Positions 5,276 to 41,152 of a stretch of 64,000 bases of DNA are shown here, one piece after another (position 1 is the stretch's first letter; every line of letters begins with the position of its first letter). Origin of the DNA: Sulfuriflexus mobilis (GTDB taxonomy: Bacteria; Pseudomonadota; Gammaproteobacteria; AKS1). Position numbers and translations under genes: made by a program. Under the pieces are notes generated by a model. It was given only the letters and a program-made list of their open reading frames with translations. It did no database searches and was not told the origin of the DNA. The stretch spans positions 186,001 through 250,000 of the forward strand of contig NZ_AP018725.1 in NCBI RefSeq assembly GCF_003967195.1. Direction: 5' to 3'.

Positions 5276-5420
5276 GGGGTTAGGGGGGATCTATGATCCC
5301 TTATTCGAGGGGCTTTTGGTTCCGTGGTTATAGGGGCTTTCTTGGCTGCCTGATTCACCACTCATAGAATCCCTTCGGGCTTCATCATGAGTACCTCAAC
5401 CATCTCCGATGGTTCGAGGC

Positions 5421-5449
5421 AAAAAAAAGCGCGGCATAAAATGCCGCGC
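5421..5449 (-). terminator. Rho-independent terminator of the candidate small RNA
   Basis: Read on the minus strand, a 9-bp stem of GCGCGGCAT and ATGCCGCGC with a TTT loop is followed by eight consecutive T (5428-5421). On the plus strand the stem is followed by TCAAAAAA, so it should act only on minus-strand transcripts. Confidence 0.7.
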
Positions 5450-5537
5450 TCAAAAAACCGACATGCAGGGGGGGAGAGGGGGGGAAGCATGTCGGTAAAG
5501 CTATCCGTCGATATTGCACTACTGTACCGTCTATCTG
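5421..5537 (-). ncRNA. Candidate small RNA with a polyC hairpin loop
   Basis: On the minus strand a perfect TATAAT lies at 5549-5544, predicting transcription from about 5537. The transcript would contain a 9-bp hairpin (5495-5487 with 5466-5458) whose 20-base loop holds two runs of seven C separated by TCT, then TTTTTT. A second 9-bp GC-rich hairpin (5449-5441 with 5437-5429) follows, ending in eight T. That is a short leader, a pyrimidine-loop hairpin and a Rho-independent terminator in about 117 bases, a typical small-RNA layout. C-rich loops of known small RNAs pair with Shine-Dalgarno sequences, so translational repression is a reasonable guess. No good -35 box is visible. Confidence 0.5.
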
Positions 5538-5695
5538 GGGTTAATTATACAAGCTTTCAAGTGTGCGCCTAGGTGGCAACTGTGATTAATTGTTACAAAT
5601 AATGCTGGTTTCTTGACGATTGGAAAAAGTCTAAGCCTAAGATATTGAATTTAAAAAGCCTTATCGGTGTAGCAAAAGTATCAGGATATCTGGAA

Positions 5696-6286
5696 TTATT
5701 TTGCCATGGCTGCCAGCAGTTGTTTTAGCGCCTTGCCACGGTGACTGAGGCGGTTCTTGGTCTCGGCATCAAGTTGCGCCGAGGAGCAGTCGCGCTCCGG
5801 TACGTAAAATACCGGGTCATAACCAAAGCCGTTTTTGCCTTGCGCGCTTTCAAGGATACGCCCTTCCCATGTGCCCTGGCAGATCAGCGGCGTCGGGTCT
5901 TCGCCGTGGCGCATAAAGACCATCAGACACTGGAAGCGTGCTGTGCGCGCGGACTCGGGCACACCCTGCAGGGCCTCGAGCAGTTTGTTCAGGTTGTCGG
6001 CATCCGAGGCACCCACACCGGCATAACGTGCCGAGTAGATGCCCGGTGCACCCTGCAGGGCATCGACCTCGAGGCCGGAGTCGTCGGCGATCGCCGGCAG
6101 GCCGCTCAATTGTGCGGCATGGCGGGCCTTGAGAATGGCGTTTTCCACAAAGGTCAGACCGGTCTCGTCGGCCTCGGGGATAGCAAACTCGGCCTGGGGG
6201 ACGACCTCAATATCCAGGCCGGCGAGGATCTGGTTGATCTCGCGGACCTTGCCGGCATTGTTACTGGCCAGGACGATCCTCTGCAT
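5696..6286 (-). CDS. rdgB: RdgB, dITP/XTP pyrophosphatase
   Basis: The start is MQRIVLASNNAGKVREI at 6286, giving 196 residues, the usual length. The ORF extends further upstream into rph, but that part does not resemble the family. Motifs are SNNAGKxxEI at the N terminus, TFVENAxxKARxAA near residue 40, ADDSGLEVDAL near residue 66, and GKNGFGYDPVFY with SHRGKAL near the end. The enzyme removes non-canonical purine triphosphates (dITP, XTP) from the nucleotide pool. It follows rph with a gap of four bases, an arrangement common in this group. Confidence 0.93.
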   Translation of the reverse strand: MQRIVLASNNAGKVREINQILAGLDIEVVPQAEFAIPEADETGLTFVENAILKARHAAQLSGLPAIADDSGLEVDALQGAPGIYSARYAGVGASDADNLNKLLEALQGVPESARTARFQCLMVFMRHGEDPTPLICQGTWEGRILESAQGKNGFGYDPVFYVPERDCSSAQLDAETKNRLSHRGKALKQLLAAMAK

Positions 6287-6290
6287 GGGC

Positions 6291-7010
6291 CTATGCCTCG
6301 GCCAGCGCGGCGCGTTGCGCCTCGATGAGTTGCTGGATGCCATCAACGGCCAGGTCCAGCATGCCATTCAGCTCATCACGCTTGAAGGCAACGCCCTCGG
6401 CGGTACCCTGTACCTCAATGAAGTCGCCCTGCTCATTCATGACCACATTCATGTCGGTTTCAGCATTGCAGTCTTCCGGGTAGTCGAGGTCCAGTACCGG
6501 CGTACCTTTAAACATGCCAACCGAGACCGAGGCGATCATGGTCTGCAGAGGATTTTTCTTGATCGAGCCGTCTTTTTGTAACACGGCGATGGCATCGGCG
6601 AGTGCCACATAGGCGCCGGTGATCGAGGCGGTGCGGGTGCCGCCGTCGGCCTGGATGACATCGCAGTCGATGTGAATGGTGCGTTCACCGAGGGCCTTCA
6701 TATCCACGGCGGCACGCAGGGCACGGCCGATGAGGCGCTGGATCTCCATGGTGCGGCCGCCTTGTTTACCGCGTGCGGCCTCGCGCCCCATGCGTTCGGT
6801 GGTGGAACGAGGCAGCATGCCGTATTCGGCGGTGACCCAGCCCTGGCCCTTGCCGCGTAAAAACCCCGGGGCCTTGTCCATGATGCTGGCGGTACAGAGT
6901 ACCTTGGTGTCACCAAATTCGATGAGCACCGAACCTTCGGCGTGTTTGGTGTAGTTACGGGTCAGGCGGATTTGACGTAGTTCATTCGGGGCTCGGCCAC
7001 TGGGACGCAT
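6291..7010 (-). CDS. rph: RNase PH
   Basis: The 239-residue protein starts [20 protein letters not shown], almost the family consensus. It continues with [20 protein letters not shown] and the [26 protein letters not shown] segment. RNase PH trims 3' extensions of tRNA precursors by phosphorolysis. It is upstream of rdgB in the same operon. Nothing unusual is seen. Confidence 0.95.
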
Positions 7011-39660: not shown

Positions 39661-41022
39661 TCAGCTTGCGAGGGCCTGCACATCCTCGGGGCCCTCGGTA
39701 CGGGCCACGCAGACCCGGTTTCGGCCGCGTTCCTTGGCCGCATACAGGGCCTTGTCGGCCTGGGCCAGCAATTTGGTGATGTCGGCATTGGGGTACTCCA
39801 GGGTGCTGGCGACACCGATGCTGACGGTGACATCGACATTGGCCGGGCTCAAGGCCTCGATCTCATAGCGTAGTTTCTCGGCATGTTGCATGGCCTGCTC
39901 GGGGCGAATGTTGGAGAAGATGATCGAAAACTCCTCGCCGCCAAAGCGCACCACCACGTCATCGGGAAACAGCTGGTTGAGCAGTTCGCCGATCGCGGCC
40001 AGGACATGGTCACCGGTCAGGTGGCCGAGCAGGTCATTGATCCGTTTGAAGTGGTCAATGTCCATGATCAGCGCCGACAAGGGCTGCTGCTTTTTGGCAC
40101 AGGTAGTGAGGATACGTTTGCCGTTATCGAGCAGGTAACGCTTGCTGCGCACCCCGGTCAGGCTGTCGGTAGAGGCCAGTCGGCTCATCTCCTCGGCCTG
40201 GTGTTTGAGGGCGATGAACTGTTGCTTGATCAGCAACAGCGAGCGGATACGGGCAATGAAGATCTCTTCAAAGATCGGCTTGGTGACAAAGTCGTTGGCC
40301 CCGGCATGGAAGACCTCGGCCTGTTTCTTCTGGTTATCGGTGACCGTGATCACGAGCACCGGCATTTCCTGTTGCGAGTAATGGAAGCGGGTGCGGATGG
40401 CGTGCAACAGGTCACCCCCGGTCAGTTTGCCCTTGAGAAAGAAGTCGGTGACGATGATATCAAAACCATCCTCCTTGTCGGCCCAGCCATTCGAGACGCC
40501 CTCGAGCAATTCCAGTGCCTGTTCGGCATGGGTCACGTGCACGACCTTGAGACCATGTTTTTCCATGATCCGGCGTGTGATCGCTGCTGCGGTCGGGCTG
40601 TCCTCGACGTAGAGGATCTTGCCGACCAGCCCGGAATTGCGTTGCAGGAAGGACTTTATGAATTCGACAAAGGCCTTGTAGCCGCTGGACTTGTCAAAGT
40701 AATCGGTGACCCCGGCGGCAAAACCCTCACGTAGCAGACGGCTGTCGGCATCACCGGAGACAACAATGACGGGCGTGTAGTGGTGGCGCTCAGAGCTACG
40801 GATCTTGCGACACAGGTCGAGCCCGTCGAGGTCTGGCAACATCAGTGAGGTGGTAATAAGGTCGAAGCGTTCCCAGTTACCGAGGTGTTCCAGCGCCTCC
40901 TCGGCATTGGCACAGGAGGTGATGCTGACGTTATTCATCTCATTCTCGAGAATGCGACCGATAATGGTCCGCGAGACCTCGGAGCCATCCACAACCATGA
41001 TGCTTGTTTGTTTTTGCGACAT
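39661..41022 (-). CDS. REC-REC-GGDEF response regulator, first receiver degenerate
   Basis: The 453-residue protein starts at MSQKQTS (41022), with a G-rich ribosome site. Domain one (residues 5-125) looks like a receiver but reads VVDGS where VVDDS is expected, and has Ser59 in TTSLMLPDLDG at the phosphoacceptor position. It cannot be phosphorylated normally. Domain two (135-260) keeps E140, D141, D193 and K248. A GGDEF domain follows with GGEEF at 361-365 and no RxxD inhibitory site. It should make c-di-GMP under control of receiver two. It interrupts the usual ftsX-rpoH adjacency. Confidence 0.9.
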   Translation of the reverse strand: MSQKQTSIMVVDGSEVSRTIIGRILENEMNNVSITSCANAEEALEHLGNWERFDLITTSLMLPDLDGLDLCRKIRSSERHHYTPVIVVSGDADSRLLREGFAAGVTDYFDKSSGYKAFVEFIKSFLQRNSGLVGKILYVEDSPTAAAITRRIMEKHGLKVVHVTHAEQALELLEGVSNGWADKEDGFDIIVTDFFLKGKLTGGDLLHAIRTRFHYSQQEMPVLVITVTDNQKKQAEVFHAGANDFVTKPIFEEIFIARIRSLLLIKQQFIALKHQAEEMSRLASTDSLTGVRSKRYLLDNGKRILTTCAKKQQPLSALIMDIDHFKRINDLLGHLTGDHVLAAIGELLNQLFPDDVVVRFGGEEFSIIFSNIRPEQAMQHAEKLRYEIEALSPANVDVTVSIGVASTLEYPNADITKLLAQADKALYAAKERGRNRVCVARTEGPEDVQALAS

Positions 41023-41152
41023 CCAACCCCCCACAGCCGTCATGTCATGTCACGGTATATTAGTAAATTATTGATTTCTTATAAGTTTGTTCTCTTTACT
41101 ATTGTGGCAAGTGAACGGGGATTACGCAAACAAGGGCCGACCAATGGTGCCG

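Follow-up and report, generated by a model that had tools for sequence, protein, structure and literature searches.

A putative genus-specific small RNA with a conserved poly-C loop downstream of rdgB in Sulfuriflexus

Here we describe a minus-strand unit downstream of rdgB in Sulfuriflexus mobilis that very probably encodes a small RNA confined to the genus, about 116 nt long (5421..5537 of the window, by which we mean the whole 64,000-nucleotide stretch of DNA analysed; covariance model 90.2 bits). The account that we consider likely, arguing from conserved signals and from described RNAs of similar build, is a trans-acting noncoding sRNA with its own promoter and terminator, whose C-rich loop would pair with G-runs and lower the translation or stability of mRNAs. 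The initial annotation had proposed a minus-strand sRNA at this position, and that interpretation is strongly supported by synteny, selective conservation, compensatory change and the non-coding character of the unit. The genome of S. mobilis aks1 (AP018725) is a single contig of 3,111,340 bp (PMC6397845), of which the window spans bases 186001-250000; this genome was compared with three sister genomes, one from a Sulfuriflexus sp. and two gammaproteobacterial MAGs, so that the sample is four genomes of one genus (G000 for S. mobilis, and G001, G002 and G003). Among the ten titles listed from 12 papers on the genus Sulfuriflexus, none deals with small RNAs.

The putative sRNA unit sits on the minus strand in a 420-bp gap between rdgB and a convergent gene. 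Its upstream neighbour rdgB (Ham1 family; Pfam PF01725, E 9.8e-68) occupies 5696..6286 on the minus strand, or 5696-6367 in the ORF list, which uses an earlier start. Read along that strand, a TATAAT box (5549->5544) is followed by a leader of ~40 nt, a first hairpin ACCGACATGC-TTCCCCCCCTCTCCCCCCCT-GCATGTCGGT, a T-run, a second hairpin GAGCGCGGCAT-TTT-ATGCCGCGCTT and T8; the limits of the RNA were set 7 nt past TATAAT and at the end of the T-run. The box, the C7-loop hairpin and the T8 terminator had been reported in this order, and all are present on the minus strand. Hairpin 1 (5459..5498, minus strand, limits within 1-2 bases) exposes the loop UUCCCCCCCUCUCCCCCCCU (C7-UCU-C7) on a stem, ACCGACATGC/GCATGTCGGT, of 10 bp; the stem had been described as 9 bp, which is too short for this genome and correct for the part conserved in the genus. 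The core of the poly-C loop, CCCCCCCUCUCCCCCCC (5468..5484, minus strand), is the presumed mRNA-pairing seed and is unique in the window. The intrinsic terminator (5421..5451, minus strand) consists of an 11-bp stem, GAGCGCGGCAU/AUGCCGCGCUU, with a UUU loop and a following U8; it is predicted by folding, was also found by a mechanical terminator scan and is kept in all four species. The z-score was -6.7 for the 121-nt fold and -8.6 for hairpin 1, with no shuffle equally stable, and C7TCTC7 occurs once in the window against 0 expected. These values, together with the presence of the unit in three other species, make a chance origin remote, and the initial observation is confirmed.

The surroundings are not entirely the otherwise empty DNA of the earlier description: a dispersed palindromic repeat (5354-5425, minus strand) starts directly after the T-run; the remaining parts are as described, on the minus strand. 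Copies of this 70-75-bp repeat (also L094, L095, L097-L103) number in the dozens in all four Sulfuriflexus genomes, and have stems that differ compensatorily; most of the copies inspected lie immediately 3' of the T-run of an intrinsic terminator. The repeat may be a REP-like element targeting terminators. The structured DNA after the terminator was considered as a second RNA module and rejected as a dispersed repeat.

Conservation across the unit is selective, falling on the -10 box, stem, loop and terminator. BLAST recovered it in 3/3 other Sulfuriflexus genomes with one copy per genome, and the hairpin pair, for which a search downstream of rdgB in relatives had been advised, is found there in 4/4 genomes, with rdgB as the immediate same-strand neighbour upstream in every case. 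On its other side the unit has a different neighbour in two genomes, a hydrolase-like gene in G002 and a membrane protein in G003. Mean pairwise identity in a whole-gap alignment is about 0.75-0.95 for the hairpins and loop but mostly 0.12-0.7 for the leader and upstream DNA, the exceptions to these diverged flanks being GTATAATT in four species and TTGACACAAAACGTAACA in three. Nine stem-1 pairs form in all four species, and in G003 one A-U pair of this stem is replaced by G-C, a double change, and another by G-U. Stem covariation was equalled by 121 of 500 shuffles of only four sequences; it is supportive of the structure and statistically weak at n=4. Stems lacking conservation and compensatory change had been named in advance as evidence against an sRNA, and the nine kept pairs and the double change run the other way. 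The loop reads C6-7 UCU C7-8 in every species (C-runs 7+7, 7+7, 6+7 and 7+8). A small ORF or peptide gene was also considered and rejected: reading frames are not conserved among the four species, and the C-run lengths shift the frame, which makes a conserved peptide gene improbable. The general marks of a trans-acting sRNA gene (predicted promoter, terminator, lack of coding capacity and conservation as a unit) are thus all found at this locus.

Judging from these conserved signals, the RNA would have its own minus-strand promoter and would end at the intrinsic terminator, and hairpin 1, as predicted from conservation and limited covariation, would hold the poly-C loop open. The -10 box TATAAT of the putative promoter (5544..5549, minus strand) belongs to a stretch, GTATAATT, that is identical in 4/4 Sulfuriflexus species. 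There is no good -35 hexamer at the unit, and the promoter scan lists no minus-strand promoter here. In the whole-gap alignment of the four genomes the usual -35 position is without consensus, which points to an activator-dependent promoter. A candidate site is the box TTGACACAAAACGTAACA, exact in G001, G002 and G003, whose 3' and 5' ends lie about 30 bp and 48 bp, respectively, upstream of the -10 box; S. mobilis retains only TTTGTAACAATTA-like letters, in a diverged counterpart at approximately 5576..5600 (minus strand). Binding of an activator upstream of the -10 box probably drives expression of the sRNA in G001, G002 and G003 at least. A regulator for TTGACACAAAACGTAACA was sought and none could be assigned, the exact box being confined to this locus.

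The missing -35 hexamer also speaks for an unlikely alternative, in which the tandem hairpins form the tail of the rdgB mRNA and serve as its terminator and 3' stability element, with no separate regulatory RNA, or in which the small RNA arises solely by processing of that mRNA. The same strand, the constant position directly downstream of rdgB and, in S. mobilis, T-runs after both hairpins are consistent with such an arrangement, but in the sister species no more than ATTT(T) comes after hairpin 1. Moreover, an invariant TATAAT, accompanied in three species by the upstream box, lies between rdgB and the hairpins, and a terminator has no need of an invariant 17-nt C-run loop. These features argue against the rdgB alternative.

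What this sRNA would pair with is suggested by its loop. The conserved poly-C loop and the precedents of sX13, RepG and the Burkholderia RNAs lead us to infer pairing with G-runs: by analogy with sX13 and RepG, the most likely partners of the loop are G-runs in or close to ribosome-binding sites, and this pairing would lower translation or stability of the mRNAs that carry them. Predicted pairing energies for G-run sites range from -12.5 to -31.7 kcal/mol, compared with -7.0 kcal/mol for a typical Shine-Dalgarno sequence. It is unlikely that the two C-runs of the loop engage two G-runs at once, in the same or in two mRNAs, or that the loop is bound by a protein or by a G-quadruplex-prone mRNA; an RNA with more than one seed of this kind would serve the genus as a regulator devoted to translation initiation at G-tracts. 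The initial annotation had instead proposed a classical anti-Shine-Dalgarno sRNA whose pyrimidine loop broadly masks GGAGG sites. The layout does resemble that of the CCUCC-bearing RF02278, ar14 and mmgR RNAs, with sub-threshold scores, but CCUCC is absent from 4/4 versions of the Sulfuriflexus RNA, so that GGAGG is a poor target, and the modest Shine-Dalgarno energy argues in the same direction. Pairing with GGAGG is therefore not well supported and we regard broad masking as very unlikely; G-run ribosome sites appear to be the better guess.

Among the candidates examined in the four Sulfuriflexus genomes, no target was conserved across the genus. Upstream of ATG, at the spacing of a ribosome site, S. 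mobilis has 120 G6 tracts against 62 for the reversed pattern, an enrichment that may be explicable by ordinary Shine-Dalgarno bias alone. A periplasmic-binding-like gene is the best conserved candidate: CTGTGGGGG(G) precedes its start in all three species with the gene, which the S. mobilis strain lacks. Two further candidates were set aside: mlaE has a near-perfect complement in S. mobilis only, its G-run being shorter in the sister species, and a response-regulator gene at about 41022 of the window is preceded here by G6, in a ribosome-site-like run at 41020-41032 (minus strand), and by G3-G4 in the sister species. We therefore claim no target. Elsewhere in the S. mobilis genome, GGGGGGAGAGGGG (G000:C1:2451017-2451033; L219, L269) is perfectly complementary to the C-loop over 13 bases and lies near CTTGC/GCAAG arms; this apparently intergenic stretch may represent either a target or a sponge RNA. 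Hfq is encoded in the S. mobilis genome.

Least probable of all is that the element acts as DNA, through a plus-strand G7AGAG7 G-quadruplex or a C-strand i-motif with transcription incidental, as GGGGGGGAGAGGGGGGG fits a four-tract G3 pattern and a G-quadruplex reportedly lies next to a small-RNA promoter in Neisseria, but this would leave the conserved stem, the compensatory change, the -10 box and the terminator unexplained.

The sRNA appears to be restricted to the genus. Across 369 genomes of the class, the covariance model gave 90-111 bits at the Sulfuriflexus locus and no more than 41 bits elsewhere. A wider distribution was considered and rejected: the weak matches inspected outside the genus proved for the most part to be terminators adjoining a tRNA gene or a protein gene, and exact C6TCTC6 occurrences there lay in coding or low-complexity DNA without the matching stem and terminator. 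No Rfam 15 family reached its gathering score, the best low-threshold match being ncS54 (RF02871; 27.2 bits, gathering score 43), with anti-hemB (RF02837) at 26.5 bits (gathering score 49.5) and RF02278 Betaproteobacteria_toxic_sRNA at 23.2 bits (gathering score 50). These matches were rejected as evidence of family membership, as they reflect shared layout only. Two other genomes carry units that are analogous to the Sulfuriflexus one, with no common ancestry implied. In G264, a DNA polymerase I-like gene is followed by four to five tandem units of a C6-7-loop hairpin and a GC-rich terminator (L045 1000-1725; anti-hemB-like, 32-40 bits, cut-off 49.5). In G360, two C6-bearing hairpins upstream of an rplM-like ribosomal gene are followed by a terminator, AAAGCGCGG, similar to the Sulfuriflexus one (L049 1470-1572; RF02278-like, 35 bits, cut-off 50).

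The architecture is that of the C/U-rich-loop sRNAs, as represented by sX13, RepG and the Burkholderia double-hairpin RNAs, and the RNA belongs to no named family by the membership tests applied. In Xanthomonas, the C-run loops of sX13 repress mRNAs with GGGG near the start, independently of Hfq (PMC3771888). Like sX13, compared here by description, the Sulfuriflexus RNA is small and structured with an apical loop of at least four C on a stable stem (10 bp in hairpin 1), whereas sX13 lies at a different locus and has three stem-loops with C4-C5 loops in place of a single C7-UCU-C7 hairpin and a UUU-loop terminator. RepG of Helicobacter pylori binds a G-repeat through a C/U-rich loop (PMC8295292), and the Sulfuriflexus loop would likewise be able to pair with homopolymeric G-repeats; in RepG, from an unrelated lineage, the loop is the terminator's own, whereas the Sulfuriflexus C-loop sits on a hairpin of its own, ahead of the terminator. 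The predicted role of the Burkholderia double-hairpin RNAs, which combine a C/U-rich hairpin with a terminator, is to cover ribosome sites; overexpression of one of them, ncS27, alters growth (PMC5688073). RF02278 is similarly short, with a pyrimidine-loop hairpin directly followed by a terminator hairpin (PMC5688073), but has CCUCC-type ribosome-site complements and several copies where Sulfuriflexus has a single copy and no such motif. With ncS54 the hairpin and terminator layout is shared, the aligned similarity being largely in the terminator and pair pattern. The alphaproteobacterial ar14/cuckoo RNAs also present a fixed pyrimidine motif in loops on varying stems, but have three hairpins each with CCUCCUCCC (PMC10746234), a motif absent from the Sulfuriflexus RNA. 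Against these examples the Sulfuriflexus RNA is compact, has a C-run loop longer than those compared and comes from a sulfur-oxidising lineage. Its loop, which is better conserved than any other single-stranded part, offers a clean system in which to look for a regulon of G-tract ribosome sites. The RNA also suggests that several proteobacterial lineages have evolved or retained regulation of the C-loop/G-run type.
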